Below, piece after piece: positions 27,891-39,648 of a stretch of 41,461 nucleotides of DNA. A program made the translations under genes and the position numbers. Numbering within the stretch: the stretch's first letter is position 1; each line of letters opens with the position of its first letter. The notes under the pieces were generated by a model that saw only the letters and a list, made by a program, of their open reading frames with translations, was not told the origin of the DNA and did not search any database. Source of the stretch: Thermithiobacillus tepidarius DSM 3134 (GTDB lineage: Bacteria; Pseudomonadota; Gammaproteobacteria; Acidithiobacillales; Thermithiobacillaceae). Location: NCBI RefSeq assembly GCF_000423825.1, contig NZ_AUIS01000025.1, positions 1 through 41,461 of the forward strand. Reading direction: 5' to 3'.

Positions 27891-27961
27891 ATCGCGGGCA
27901 AGCCCGTTCCTGCGGGGCGAGCGGCGCCGGGGCCACTTGTAGGAGCGGGCTTGCCCGCGAT
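27891..27961. repeat. REP pair A downstream of secF
   Basis: Two inverted copies of a REP sequence, 27892–27913 (TCGCGGGCAAGCCCG then TTCCTGC) and 27939–27961 (GTAGGAGC then GGGCTTGCCCGCGAT), are separated by 25 nt. Each arm has its own palindromic core, and together they can form a large cruciform/REPIN-like hairpin. The motif resembles the GTAGGAGCGGGCTTGCCCGCGA family described in Pseudomonas. It lies after the secF stop, the usual intergenic location. Confidence 0.88.
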
Positions 27962-28449: not shown

Positions 28450-29541
28450 TCAAGCGCCGGCGGCGCGGCTCAAATCCCCTTGGGCGTTGTTGCGGACCAG
28501 CGCGGCGCCCTGCCGGAAGCTGTACCACACCTTGTTCTCGAAGTCATAGAGCTGGCAGCTTTTGAAAATGTGCCGCACCGTGGACCAGCGGAAGCGGTAC
28601 TCGTGGATGTACGAGCCGTACTCCCGCTTCAGGTCGGCGTAGGCGCGCTTCAGGTTGTAGAAGGGGATGCGCGGGTCCACGTGATGCGGCGTGTGCACCA
28701 TGATGTTGTGGATCAGCATTTCGCTCAGGCGAGAACAGCGCACCACCGTGCTGCAATAGAGCTGGCCGAGGGTATTGGTCCACTCCTGCCGCGAGTCGAA
28801 GAAGGGGATCTGCGGGTGGGTGTGGTGCAGGAAGATGAAGAGGGCGATGAAGTAGTTGAAGACCAGCCACGGTACGATGACCGCGGCGATCACGCCCACG
28901 ATGCCGCCCGCGTAGGCATAGGCCAGCGCCGAGAAGGCCAGAAAGAAGACCAGCGTGATCAGCTTGTTCAGCGTGAGGAGATGGCGGTCCTCCGTGTTGG
29001 CGTCCGGCTTGAAGCGCACCATGCCGGGCCACCAGACGCGCAGCAGGTAGTGCAGGGCGCAGCTGTAGGGGCTGCGCTCCAGCCGATAGATGAAGCGCTG
29101 CCACGGCGAGCGGCTGGCGTATTCCGCCGGCGTCAGCGGACGCCAGATCCAGTCCACCGGACTGAAAGAGGTGAAGCTGTGGTGCACGCGGTTGTGGCCG
29201 AAGGCCCAGAGGCGATACATCTGCAGCGAAGGCAGCATGAAAATCGTGCCCAGCACCTCGGCCACGCGCTTGCTCTTGAAGAGCGCGCCGTGGGCGGCAT
29301 CGTGGGCCCACACGAACATGAAAGCCACGGTGCAGCCGGCCAGCAGGCCGAAAAAGAGCTTCAGCCACGGGCTGTGGCTGGCAAAGACGCCCCACATGGC
29401 GCTCAGATAGAGGACAAGGTCGAAGGCGTACCAGCCCAGGGCTTTCCTGGTGGAGCGCTGATAGCAGTCGCTGGAGATCGCCTGGCGGACGGTGTTGAGC
29501 TTGATGCCTTGTAGGGTCTGGATATCGGTCGCTGAGCCCAT
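28450..29541 (-). CDS. Membrane fatty-acid desaturase
   Basis: A 363-aa membrane di-iron desaturase that introduces a double bond into acyl chains. The three histidine boxes are visible: HDAAHG, HNRVHH (each after hydrophobic helices) and HTPHHVDPRIPFYNL. HHTHP, a further histidine cluster, lies in the centre. At least four hydrophobic segments flank them, for example WYAFDLVLYLSAMWGVFA and FFLAFSALAYAYAGGIVGVI. The pattern resembles delta-12/omega-type desaturases, but regiospecificity is not deducible. The start is ATG 29541 with GGAAGAAG upstream. The upstream region is unusually AT-rich, perhaps for cold or membrane-fluidity control. Confidence 0.88.
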   Translation of the reverse strand: MGSATDIQTLQGIKLNTVRQAISSDCYQRSTRKALGWYAFDLVLYLSAMWGVFASHSPWLKLFFGLLAGCTVAFMFVWAHDAAHGALFKSKRVAEVLGTIFMLPSLQMYRLWAFGHNRVHHSFTSFSPVDWIWRPLTPAEYASRSPWQRFIYRLERSPYSCALHYLLRVWWPGMVRFKPDANTEDRHLLTLNKLITLVFFLAFSALAYAYAGGIVGVIAAVIVPWLVFNYFIALFIFLHHTHPQIPFFDSRQEWTNTLGQLYCSTVVRCSRLSEMLIHNIMVHTPHHVDPRIPFYNLKRAYADLKREYGSYIHEYRFRWSTVRHIFKSCQLYDFENKVWYSFRQGAALVRNNAQGDLSRAAGA

Positions 29542-29761: not shown

Positions 29762-29979
29762 CTTTTTGCCGCTCATTGCGTTCGCTCTCGCTGCGCTCGC
29801 GAAAACGGGCCGCGCCCGTTGCCTGAGGCGCCATAGGCGCCGAAAGCGCAGCGGTAAACTTCCGCTGGTCGTTTTGCCGTTCACTGCGCTCGCTCTCGCC
29901 TGCGGCTCGCGAAACTCCCGTTGGTCGTTTTGCCACTCCCGTGGGCTGCTCTCGCCTGCGGCTCGCGCAACTCGACGGG
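29762..29979. repeat. Three imperfect copies of a ~59-nt repeat
   Basis: Copies lie at about 29762–29806 (short, divergent), 29862–29920 and 29918–29979. The last two abut. The shared skeleton is GGTCGTTTTGCC, a variable stretch, then GCTCGCTCTCGCCTG or the like, CGGCTCGCG and AACTC. The units are rich in CTCGC/GCGAG and are not coding. The origin is unknown; they sit between a lone REP and two REP pairs. Confidence 0.7.
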
Positions 29980-30032
29980 ACAACGGGGTGGAAACGGCAA
30001 AGGCAACCCAGAGCCCCGCTGCCGCCGTCGGC

Positions 30033-30102
30033 TGTCGGAGCGAGCTGGCTCGCGATTGCTCGCCAATCGACACGGCTGATCGCGAGCCAGCTCGCTCCTA
30101 CA
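30033..30102. repeat. REP pair B
   Basis: Inverted arms GGAGCGAGCTGGCTCGCGA (30037–30055) and its complement TCGCGAGCCAGCTCGCTCC (about 30080–30098), flanked by TGTC/CTAC, across a 24-nt spacer. The core has A/T in place of one G/C relative to the other REP pairs, showing compensatory change on both arms. Confidence 0.88.
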
Positions 30103-30216
30103 AGCCAGGATGACAGCCCGCCAGGCTTGGCGCGGCACCGCTCGCGCCGGGCAGGGGGAAGGCTGATAGGGCGGGTGCCCGGCCATTGCCCCTGGACCGC
30201 GCCGCCGCCGCTGGCC

Positions 30217-30284
30217 GTGGGAGCGGGCTCGCCCGCGATTCCTTGGCAGGCGATTCAGTCTATCGCGGGCCAGCCCGCTCCTAC
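30217..30284. repeat. REP pair C
   Basis: Left arm GTGGGAGCGGGCTCGCCCG-CGAT (30217–30239). Right arm ATCGCGGGCCAGCCCGCTCC-TAC (from 30262), across a 22-nt spacer. It is the same family as pairs A, D and E. Confidence 0.88.
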
Positions 30285-30482: not shown

Positions 30483-32090
30483 TCATGCTCCCGCATCCAC
30501 ATCCACGCGCCAGGTCCTGAACTCCCGATACAGCACCTGCCCCGGGCCGCCGCCTGGCTTGCGGGTGACGAAACGGGCCTGGGTCCAGTCCACGTCGGCG
30601 GCCTGGCCGGCGCGCGGGCTGTGGCGCAGGGCCAGGGCGGCGGCCTGGGCCAGCACCCGGTCCGGCGGGCGCTTTTCCTGCTTGGGCATGCGGATCAGCA
30701 CGTGGGCGCCCGGATGGTCCTGCACGTGCAGCCAGATGTCCCAGGGGCGGGCGAGCTTGAAGGTGATGGTTTCGTTCTGGCGGGCGCTGCGCCCGACCAG
30801 GATCTCGTAGCCGTCCACGCTGACGCGCAGGGGCTCGGCATTGCCGTTGCCTGCGCGGGCGGCGCGCGGCTTCGTCTTGCCGGTCTCGGCCGGCGGATGG
30901 AGGGCTTCCAGGCGCGCGGCGATACTTGCCGGCGTGCCTTCGCCGCTGTCCAGCTCCCTGCTGAGCGCCTGCAGCGCGGCGAGCCGGTCCTCCAGCGCCC
31001 GTTGCCGCTCCAGGGCCTGGGCCAGGCCGCGCTCGGCCTTGCGCGCCTGCTTGAAGTAGCCTTCGGCCTGCTGATGCAGCGGCAGGCCGGGCGTGACCGG
31101 CACCCGGATGGCGGCGGGCGGCTCGGCGTTGTAGTCCAGCGCCTCCACCGCATCGCTTTGCGGAATCCGGTCGGGCAGGGTGTAGAGGGCCTGTCCCCAG
31201 CGCCGATAGCGGGCCGGGTCCTGCAGGCGCTCGACATCCGCGCGCACCTTGCGCAGCGTCTCGCTTTCGCGGTGGACGAGCTGCCGCAGCCGCTGTCGCA
31301 GCGCCGTCTGCAGCGGTGCCTGCGCATGCGCGCCGGTGCGCTCGCGCAGGAAGGCCGGCCAGCCCGTCAGGAAGTCGGCCGGGCCGAGCTCATCCCAGCC
31401 GGGCAGGACGATGGGATACAGCAGGTCGTGGTCGTCCCGCCGCAGGCGGTGCCAGGGTCGGCACTGCCGCCGCGCCGCTTCGGCCGTTGCGGCCAGATCG
31501 TCCTGGGCTGCCGGAGGCAGTGGGGGACGGAGGCGCGGCGCGATGAACCAGAGCCGCTCGCCACCCATGCCGGCCGGGGGACGGTAGGGTTGCTGCGGCA
31601 GGATGCGCGCTTCCGCCGCCGTGACCTCGTCCCAGCGCCAGGCGAAGCGCATTCGCCCGTCGCCTTCCAGCAGGACGAGGTTGCTGCGCTGTCCCAGCCA
31701 CTCCGCCACCAGGGTGCGCTGGTCGCGCCGGCCGCTGATGTGCCGCCGTTCGAAACGCAGGCATAGCACCCGGTCCGGATGGGGCGCGTCGATGGCCTGC
31801 AGGTGCAGTCCCTGGAGCTGCTGGCGCGCCAGGTTGGCGAAGGGGGGTGACTCGGCCTCGGGCAGGGCGTCGGCCAGCCAGAGGCCCAGTGGCGCGCGGG
31901 CGATCTGCAGCAGCAGGTCGCGGGTGCCGAATGTCAGCACGATGCCGCCGGGTGCGCTGCGTACCTCGGTGAGCCTCGCCCCCCGCAGGGCATCTGCCAG
32001 GCAGGCGGCGGCGCACTGCAATTGCAGTGCGTCCATGTTGAAGCGGCCCGGGGGGGCGGCGGCTTGGGGCTTGGCGGGAGTTGTCGTCAC
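30483..32090 (-). CDS. rqcH: NFACT family protein, RqcH-like
   Basis: A 535-aa NFACT protein. RqcH/Rqc2 proteins bind split 50S subunits carrying stalled nascent chains and recruit tRNA-Ala to add C-terminal alanine tails. Order: NFACT-N domain (about 19–230), a charged coiled coil (about 270–390), a Lys/Arg-rich linker, and the NFACT-R/DUF814 domain (about 420–530) with YEILVGRSARQNETITFKLA and PWDIWLHVQDHPGAHVLI. The Asp-Arg pair needed for alanine tailing in B. subtilis RqcH has a counterpart in HPDRVLCLRF (D106–R107). The GTG at 32090 and ATG at 32036 are alternative starts, neither with a good Shine–Dalgarno. The second matches the usual family N-terminus (MDALQLQ). It is divergent from glyA. 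Confidence 0.85.
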   Translation of the reverse strand: MTTTPAKPQAAAPPGRFNMDALQLQCAAACLADALRGARLTEVRSAPGGIVLTFGTRDLLLQIARAPLGLWLADALPEAESPPFANLARQQLQGLHLQAIDAPHPDRVLCLRFERRHISGRRDQRTLVAEWLGQRSNLVLLEGDGRMRFAWRWDEVTAAEARILPQQPYRPPAGMGGERLWFIAPRLRPPLPPAAQDDLAATAEAARRQCRPWHRLRRDDHDLLYPIVLPGWDELGPADFLTGWPAFLRERTGAHAQAPLQTALRQRLRQLVHRESETLRKVRADVERLQDPARYRRWGQALYTLPDRIPQSDAVEALDYNAEPPAAIRVPVTPGLPLHQQAEGYFKQARKAERGLAQALERQRALEDRLAALQALSRELDSGEGTPASIAARLEALHPPAETGKTKPRAARAGNGNAEPLRVSVDGYEILVGRSARQNETITFKLARPWDIWLHVQDHPGAHVLIRMPKQEKRPPDRVLAQAAALALRHSPRAGQAADVDWTQARFVTRKPGGGPGQVLYREFRTWRVDVDAGA

Positions 32091-38339: not shown

Positions 38340-38609
38340 TCAGCCGATGCCCAGCAAACGGTGCACCAGCCCGGTCACCAGCCCGAGCACGATGACCGCA
38401 CCGAAAAAGGGCAGGGGCGCGCGCATGGCGTAGGTGCCGCCGAGGGCCAGGGTCGCGCCGAACATGGCGCCGGTGACGACGTTGGCCTGGGTCGCGGCGG
38501 TCGGCTCCAGACCGAGGGCCATGGCGATGCGCAGCGCGGCGAAGCTGAACAGGCCGATGAGGACGACGAAGATGACGCGGTTGCGCCGGGGGGAGTTGAG
38601 GTGCTGCAC
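38340..38609 (-). CDS. Small membrane protein, unknown function
   Basis: I do not recognise this family. GTG 38609 is chosen because AAGGAAG lies 5 nt upstream; a TTG at 38627 is in frame but lacks this. The 89-aa protein has a basic N-terminus (NSPRRNR) followed by three hydrophobic stretches, about 12–34, 44–62 and 68–86, implying an inner-membrane location. It is divergent from the DUF2939-like gene. Codon pattern and RBS make it a probable real gene. Confidence 0.6.
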   Translation of the reverse strand: MQHLNSPRRNRVIFVVLIGLFSFAALRIAMALGLEPTAATQANVVTGAMFGATLALGGTYAMRAPLPFFGAVIVLGLVTGLVHRLLGIG

Positions 38610-38742
38610 GGGAACTTCCTTGACCAAGTGGACAACGGAGGAACGGCGCCCGATAAGCTATCATGCTCCGGTGGAAAAAGCATCCCCGAGCCGCATCTCT
38701 GCCAAGCTCGGGGCTGGCATTCTTCACAAGGGAGGATTCCGC

Positions 38743-39279
38743 GTGACAAAGAACAAGAAGCTGATGCTGGGTGTGATCGTCCTGCTCGCTGCCGGCTGGA
38801 TTTACGCGGCCCCGTATCTGGCCGTCCGCAGCATGAAAAGCGCGGCGGAAAGCGGAGATGCGGTGGCGCTGGCCGACCACGTCGACTTTCCGGCACTCAA
38901 GGCGAGCTTGAAGGCCAGCCTTGCTGCTGAGATGACACGACAGATGGCGAGAGAGGATGACGCATTCGCGGCGCTTGGCGTGGCCATGGCCGGCGTCATC
39001 ATCAATCCCATGATCGATGCGCTCGTGTCCCCCGAGGGGCTGGCGGCCATGATGAAAGGGCGCCAGCCGGACCCCGGCAGGCAGGCGGGCGCAGGCGCCC
39101 AACGAGGCGGGCTTGGCGCGAGCGAGGCCGATCCTGTGCTTGAAATGGGCTATGAAACGTTCAACCGGTTCGCGGTGAGGGTATCCGACAAGGTGGATCC
39201 GAAGCGGGAGTTGACCATGGTGTTCCTCCGCGACGGCTTGTCCTGGAAATTGTCCGCAATCAGGCTGCCTGGCTCCTAA
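38743..39279 (+). CDS. DUF2939-like membrane-anchored protein
   Basis: A 178-aa protein starting at GTG 38743 behind an excellent AGGGAGGA site. A single N-terminal helix (about 6–24) is followed by APYLAVRSMKSAAESGDAVALADHVDFPALKASLK. This spacing of A/L with a D-x-VDFPALRxSLK-like core is typical of DUF2939 proteins. A Gly/Gln/Ala-rich linker (about 107–128) precedes YETFNRFAVRVSDKVD and a beta-rich end. It is likely periplasmic-facing. The function of the family is unknown. Confidence 0.72.
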   Translation: MTKNKKLMLGVIVLLAAGWIYAAPYLAVRSMKSAAESGDAVALADHVDFPALKASLKASLAAEMTRQMAREDDAFAALGVAMAGVIINPMIDALVSPEGLAAMMKGRQPDPGRQAGAGAQRGGLGASEADPVLEMGYETFNRFAVRVSDKVDPKRELTMVFLRDGLSWKLSAIRLPGS

Positions 39280-39370
39280 CCGGCCCGCTCCCAGCGAGAG
39301 GGTACTCGGGGAACGCGGGCGTCGTGCCACCGCTGCCCCGGCAGCGAACTGGCCGCGCTGCTCATGGACT

Positions 39371-39439
39371 GTAGGAGCGGGCTGGCCCGCGATAACGGTG
39401 CCGCTCGACCAACCCGATCGCGGGCCAGCCCGCTCCTAC
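39371..39439. repeat. REP pair D
   Basis: Left arm GTAGGAGCGGGCTGGCCCG-CGAT (39371–39393) and right arm ATCGCGGGCCAGCCCGCTCC-TAC (from 39417) are exact complements across a 23-nt spacer. It is the best preserved of the REP pairs. Confidence 0.9.
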
Positions 39440-39577
39440 CAGCACGGGCAGCGTCACGGCCGCGCGAACCGACGGGGATCGCCCACGCTAGCCCTTCACC
39501 CGGCATGCGCCCGGCGGGGGCGGGCATGCCGGGCGGGGGCGGTGCCATGCCAAGCCTGGCGGGCTGGCATGTTGGTG

Positions 39578-39648
39578 TGCAGGAGCGGGCTGGCCCGCGA
39601 TCCGCCGTGCCGGTGGGCAAGCAAGCATGGGCCAGCCCGCTCCTGCGG
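39578..39648. repeat. REP pair E (right arm shortened)
   Basis: Left arm TGCAGGAGCGGGCTGGCCCG-CGAT (from 39578). Right arm ATGGGCCAGCCCGCTCCTGC (39627–39646) lacks the CGCG outer part of the palindrome, replaced by AGCATG. It is a decayed member of the family. Confidence 0.82.

Follow-up and report, generated by a model that had tools for sequence, protein, structure and literature searches.

How repetitive extragenic palindromic (REP) sequences and the bacterial interspersed mosaic elements (BIMEs) built from them spread is an open question, and the copied unit is debated, with a single REP, a REP pair and a larger block as the candidates. In Escherichia coli, the RIB and RIP elements consist of two REP units around a defined middle and are found at the 3' end of transcription units. 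IHF has a role in these E. coli elements (PMC2817692). Here we analysed a composite of two REP pairs around a middle, which carries a 26-nt segment and occurs twice in a 41,461-nt stretch of DNA (the window). The window is one entire contig (C23) of the genome of Thermithiobacillus tepidarius DSM 3134T, an acidithiobacillian sulfur bacterium (2,958,498 bases, 43 contigs). We consider it likely that the composite is a member of a genome-specific, lineage-specific BIME family of outward-facing REP pairs and exchangeable joints, which would be spread in trans by a REP-associated tyrosine transposase (RAYT) and reshuffled by recombination. By the features tested, the family is a BIME family: REPs alternate at regular spacing with inter-REP segments between them, the motifs are combined differently from locus to locus, and the mosaic comprises two independent modules as well as alternative left parts that include a second REP type. 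The genome holds one REP-flanked RAYT gene, ~275 REP half-sites and a 54-copy joint, and these parts can be traced separately. They suggest that the composites arose through module exchange and that the part preserved whole is the single REP hairpin.

Each of the closest described systems resembles this family in some respects and differs from it in others. Head-to-tail units are also a feature of the BIMEs of Stenotrophomonas and E. coli, as is a RAYT gene with the matching REPs on its flanks (Nunvar et al. 2010, PMC2817692). However, the inter-REP segments of the Stenotrophomonas BIMEs lack homology between clusters, whereas the T. tepidarius joint (80-158 nt across the family, two exchangeable modules) recurs at ~48 loci. 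Long genome-wide joints made of two independently inherited modules are what distinguishes this family from described BIMEs. With the REP doublets forming hairpins (REPINs) and the ordered REPIN clusters of Pseudomonas fluorescens SBW25 (Bertels and Rainey 2011, PMC3116915), it shares the short-loop REP doublets, the tandem units of flank, REPIN and flank, and the Pseudomonas-like REP; in T. tepidarius, however, the pairing between partner REPs is not kept, half of the pairs mixing different stem types, and the flank modules are common genome-wide. As in the GTAG-tagged REP dimers found with other repeats (PMC3733652), head-to-head GTAG dimers are regularly tied to a second sequence, but the described dimers sit inside a palindrome, for which the test in T. 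tepidarius was negative. The T. tepidarius copies likewise have two REP units around a defined middle at gene 3' ends, as in RIB and RIP elements. Unlike those elements, they had no exact IHF consensus within or ≤130 nt from any of the 54 middles and only two loose matches, and an IHF-type RIB was rejected.

The composite and its genome-wide family

In the window, the REP was matched nine times with ≤3 mismatches, against 0.00 matches expected from shuffles. The 17-nt core of the 26-nt segment has two exact copies, which are the only window matches with <3 mismatches; at ≤3 mismatches there were 3 matches against 0.75 expected. As the preliminary description had claimed, the same composite order is present twice on opposite strands, with 24 of the 26 positions of the segment identical. 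The arrangement was described correctly, while of the outer ends given there 30033 was one base off and 39648 two. The segment starts 12 nt past the left REP pair, and the right pair follows 77 nt (copy 1) or 101 nt (copy 2) further. The parts of the two copies are as follows.

30013..30033, + strand: copy 1, 5' leader GCCCCGCTGCCGCCGTCGGCT before the left REP pair; weak conservation among copies, similar to the last part of the middle, fades upstream within ~20 nt
30034..30101, + strand: copy 1, left REP pair (a REPIN whose GTAG-type ends face out); REP 30034-30056, 22-nt loop, REP 30079-30101
30102..30216, + strand: copy 1, middle, 115 nt; 5' module including the 26-nt segment, then 3' module with terminal GCCGCCGCCGCTGGCC
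30114..30139, + strand: copy 1, 26-nt segment, part of the 5' module; 24/26 identical to 39541-39566 (-)
30217..30284, + strand: copy 1, right REP pair, the right border of the element; REP 30217-30239, loop, REP 30262-30284
39371..39439, - strand: copy 2, right REP pair; REP 39371-39393, loop, REP 39417-39439
39440..39578, - strand: copy 2, middle, 139 nt; standard 5' module, different 3' module
39541..39566, - strand: copy 2, 26-nt segment; 24/26 identical to 30114-30139 (+)
39579..39646, - strand: copy 2, left REP pair; REP 39579-39601, loop, degenerate REP 39624-39646 (GCAGGAGCGGGCTGGCCCATGCT)

Beyond the window, we worked with stretches of the genome fetched around repeat sites (loci labelled L; positions on contigs are labelled C). 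Genome-wide, the 17-mer core gave 21 matches with ≤2 mismatches and none in the reversed control, and all eight matches with ≤1 mismatch adjoin a REP pair. Three matches without a nearby REP (L013, L017, L021) carry two mismatches each and seem to be chance matches within genes. The segment was found neither mostly without REP pairs nor as two chance copies only, the outcomes that the preliminary description had named as contradicting it.

A covariance model of the middle, built on an alignment of 11 middles, detected 54 copies in the genome at E ≤ 1e-3; the middle of copy 1 matched the model (R1) with 92.6 bits and an E value of 5e-14. The copies occupy ~48 loci, six of which carry two consecutive middles repeating every ~205 bp, and the 26-nt segment lies near the start of the middle. 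A REP lies no more than ~80 nt from each of the 54 middles, and 37 of them are flanked by REPs to the left and to the right. A random stretch of the window has such a REP in ~1.7% of cases, a chance that applies per side. The REP is of a Pseudomonas-like, GTAG type and forms the short G+C-rich palindrome characteristic of REPs; its half-site (GTAGGAGCGGGCNNGCCCGCGAT, ≤3 mismatches) occurs 275 times genome-wide and not at all in the reversed control. A middle adjoins 49 of the 100 best-listed REPs, so REPs occur in other arrangements too.

With the right REP pair's outer edge as the anchor of the family alignment, the information fell from 1.5 to 0.3 bits at once. At the left border, conservation fades across ~20 nt (GCTGCCGCCRCYGGCY), a stretch similar to the last part of the middle. 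The unit can therefore be written as a short leader, a REP pair, a joint with a similar leader at its end, and a REP pair. Most loci hold one and a half units (pair - joint - pair), and the outer flanks are unrelated between loci. The middle model had no match in 56 related genomes, including one of the same family. Middles were also absent from 18 genomes with related RAYTs, in a search without a positive control, and from an exact-pattern scan of one genome per species across 84,980 species, which possibly excluded the T. tepidarius genome itself and so likewise lacked a positive control.

Exchangeable modules and intact REP hairpins

The middle consists of a 5' module (~80 nt) after one REP pair and a 3' module (~60 nt) before the next, with the boundary at GGGCAGG/GTGAGGG. 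Across copies, pairwise similarity in the 5' half was uncorrelated with that in the 3' half (r = 0.012), whereas splitting the columns at random gave 0.48 (lowest value among 100 splits, 0.34). The 35 best copies gave the same picture, with r = -0.04 for the halves and 0.41 for random column splits. Blocks of 20 columns fell into two groups, columns 0-80 and 80-139, with a between-group correlation near zero. Seventeen copies have the 5' module alone and five the standard 3' module alone. Independent halves and the many single-module copies indicate that the middle is not fixed. The two-pair unit with a fixed middle proposed in the preliminary description is recurrent, with 54 middles at ~48 loci between unrelated outer flanks, but its middle is a pair of modules with independent histories. 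The two window copies themselves have only the 5' module in common. Copy 2 is among the 17, and its 3' half together with the right REP pair matches C19:10904 at 95.6% over 135 nt; this different 3' module is the reason why only 26 bases had been seen as common to the two.

The left part is replaced in some copies by a different REP type, TGTTGGGCTTCG...CAGCCCAACCTAC, which resembles the GTAGGTTGGGC REP listed for Coxiella (PMC2817692). Similarity of the left loops tracks the 5' part of the middle and similarity of the right loops the 3' part (p ~0.02 each, uncorrected), and a test for left- versus right-specific loop classes gave a weak signal (5 of 300 permutations). It is possible, and we propose it tentatively, that a REP pair and its adjoining module form an exchangeable cassette. 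Left and right cassettes might then be swapped at GGGCAGG/GTGAGGG by a RAYT-driven or recombination process, and the family would evolve by combinatorial joining, not by whole-element copying.

Mobilisation as one block is the alternative that survives best. The whole pair-middle-pair unit (~250-280 bp) would then be a non-autonomous element that the RAYT copies and inserts as such, like a small composite transposon. The preliminary description had implied this, and the 37 complete copies scattered among loci whose flanks are not related, the abrupt right border and the similarity of some copies from end to end (C17/C34 86%, C25/C5 82%) are what such an element would leave. Since the flanks of these similar copies are unrelated, block transfer must have occurred on some occasions at least. 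We nevertheless regard it as an unlikely origin of the family. The loops of left and right REP pairs showed no correlation (r = -0.16), the two halves of the middle have separate histories, and many copies hold one module only. Moreover, common tracts stop inside the middle or inside a REP pair; the tract shared by C6:105653 and C6:115068 stops after the first REP of the right pair.

The REP pairs are inverted, mostly with loops of 20-25 nt, and 46 distinct pairs were present among the fetched loci. A variable position in the stem is G-C or A-T within each REP in 90 of 92 cases (45/46 on each side). Across the two partners of a pair, in contrast, the stem types are independent (15 GC/GC, 14 GC/AT, 8 AT/GC and 7 AT/AT). 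This covariation within the REP but not between partners indicates that the single REP hairpin is the unit kept intact. Selection or transposase recognition seems to act on this hairpin, rather than on the long one formed by the pair. The conservation of single hairpins agrees with the biochemistry of TnpA_REP, which cuts single-stranded REPs in a strand-specific manner (PMC8266576), and fits less easily with partner-REP pairing as a conserved feature of REPINs (PMC3116915).

The RAYT gene and the spread of the units

For one RAYT, a TnpA_REP of 160 aa (Y1_Tnp, E 2e-10) encoded at C1:124603-125082, the same REP was found on either side. The gene forms a REPtron, flanked at L024:3065-3087 and L024:3595-3617 by REPs that are inverted relative to each other. 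Its nearest relatives in the species collection are ~51-63% identical and come mostly from Pseudomonas, with some from other gamma- and betaproteobacteria. Closer to T. tepidarius, the REP was absent or nearly so in 31 relatives, with two single weak matches within the order, and close RAYT homologues were absent from 30 relatives, members of the order having distant ones of 24-31% identity. The simplest reading would be that a Pseudomonas-like RAYT was acquired and that the REPs expanded afterwards. A large and apparently undescribed BIME family is added for Acidithiobacillia, in a lineage whose searched relatives are without this REP and without a close RAYT.

REP cleavage and strand transfer are known for the E. 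coli, S. maltophilia and Marinomonas proteins (PMC8266576). In T. tepidarius, the RAYT would nick single-stranded REP hairpins beside the GTAG end, such nicking may spread REP-bounded pieces in trans, and recombination among the many near-identical REPs and joints could then shuffle the modules. Several points weigh against a RAYT-spread, recombining BIME family as the explanation. We infer the action of the RAYT from its association with the REPs. No insertion was seen directly, and a clean empty site, in which the arms would meet without a REP pair between them, gave no match with ≤3 mismatches when one junction was searched for in the one genome of the genus analysed. Around half of the REPs in the list of 100 have no middle beside them, the composite being one arrangement among several. 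The copies that are similar from end to end also count here, as does the dependence of the orientation result given below on a simple G+C-frame gene call.

Two further alternatives concern the order in which the parts came together. The middle could be an older intergenic repeat that served as a target site and attracted REP-pair insertion at fixed points, the REP pairs being later and separate. REP dimers within other palindromic repeats have been described in a few genomes (PMC3733652), and other repeats do lie upstream of many copies. This origin is quite improbable, as none of the 54 middles is without an adjoining REP and the one joined-arm sequence searched for, which lacks the REP pair, was not found with ≤3 mismatches. 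A larger palindrome around the REP pair, whose arms had seemed complementary by eye, was rejected when arms of the same copy paired no better than arms of different copies. Still less probable is local tandem duplication, by which a REP pair and the adjoining flanks would have been doubled on the spot at every locus; ordered tandem REPIN clusters, flanks included, have been described in P. fluorescens (PMC3116915). The six loci with two tandem middles support this reading, and only these still fit it: at a given locus, the loops of the left and right REP pairs have different sequences, and the same middle at ~48 loci speaks against an independent origin at each.

A direct REP array with a 66-nt period and the spacer GGGATCGGGCTGCGGGGAGGCAGCGCGGCGAAGGGGAGCGTTG lies on both sides of the RAYT gene (L024:2500-5100, C1:124000-126600), a third arrangement of the same REP. 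A second Y1_Tnp protein, 288 aa long with an extra C-terminal part, is encoded at L025:2089-2955 (C31).

Gene neighbourhood, the middle and further repeats

Gene neighbours were called by a simple G+C-frame method, and 45 copies had a called gene on each side. Twenty-four of these lie between convergent genes, 20 between tandem genes and 1 between divergent genes. A circular chromosome must have as many convergent as divergent gaps, so a ratio of 24 to 1 departs strongly from parity (binomial p = 1.5e-6), which fits an element that is tolerated or useful at gene 3' ends. For a BIME family spread in trans, retention between convergent genes would probably reflect the avoidance of promoters. Copies at 3' ends may also have a useful role, for which transcription end, mRNA 3' protection and gyrase binding are candidates. 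The window genes that flank copy 1 encode a fatty-acid desaturase (28450-29541, -) and an NFACT-family protein (30483-32090, -); those around copy 2 are a DUF2939 gene (38434-39279, +) and an MliC-domain gene (+).

The preliminary description had suggested a small RNA, or what is left of a mobilising gene, as the nature of the middle. Either is very improbable, although one small hairpin in the 5' module (TGCCR...YTGGCA) is kept in 88-92% of cells in an alignment fitted to it and copy 2 folds better than its shuffles (z -2.3): single-copy folds were no better than shuffles in five of six copies (z near 0), no consensus fold emerged de novo across the 54 copies, Rfam gave no gathering-level match and only sub-threshold microRNA matches to the REP hairpins, middle lengths fall in all three phases with no favoured reading frame, and the middle model had no match in the RAYT locus.

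Two copies (L041 and L058; C6:128963 and C43:50741) lie at the 3' ends of apparently paralogous histidine-kinase genes and have middles that are 90% identical. One of them has lost most of its right REP pair and retains CCGCGCCTAC, the footprint of a deletion. In the window, another REP pair at 27891-27961 is arranged the other way round, tail-tail with the GTAG ends facing inward; 25 nt separate its REPs, and it lacks a middle. A further repeat (GTTTTGCCGTTCGCTGCGCTC...) at 29866-29966 is found upstream of the left REP pair in 8 of 52 copies (e.g. C4:108953 and C16:48173), and GGGACAACGGGGTGGAAA likewise precedes the left REP pair in 8/52 copies. Immediately outside copy 2, a weak remnant of a second middle at 39232-39329 (-) starts with CTGCCGGGGCAGCGGTGGCACGACGCCCGCG. 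Sequences with a comparable start come after the right REP pair at C5:93383, C6:97166 and C36:250 and may represent a second joint type.
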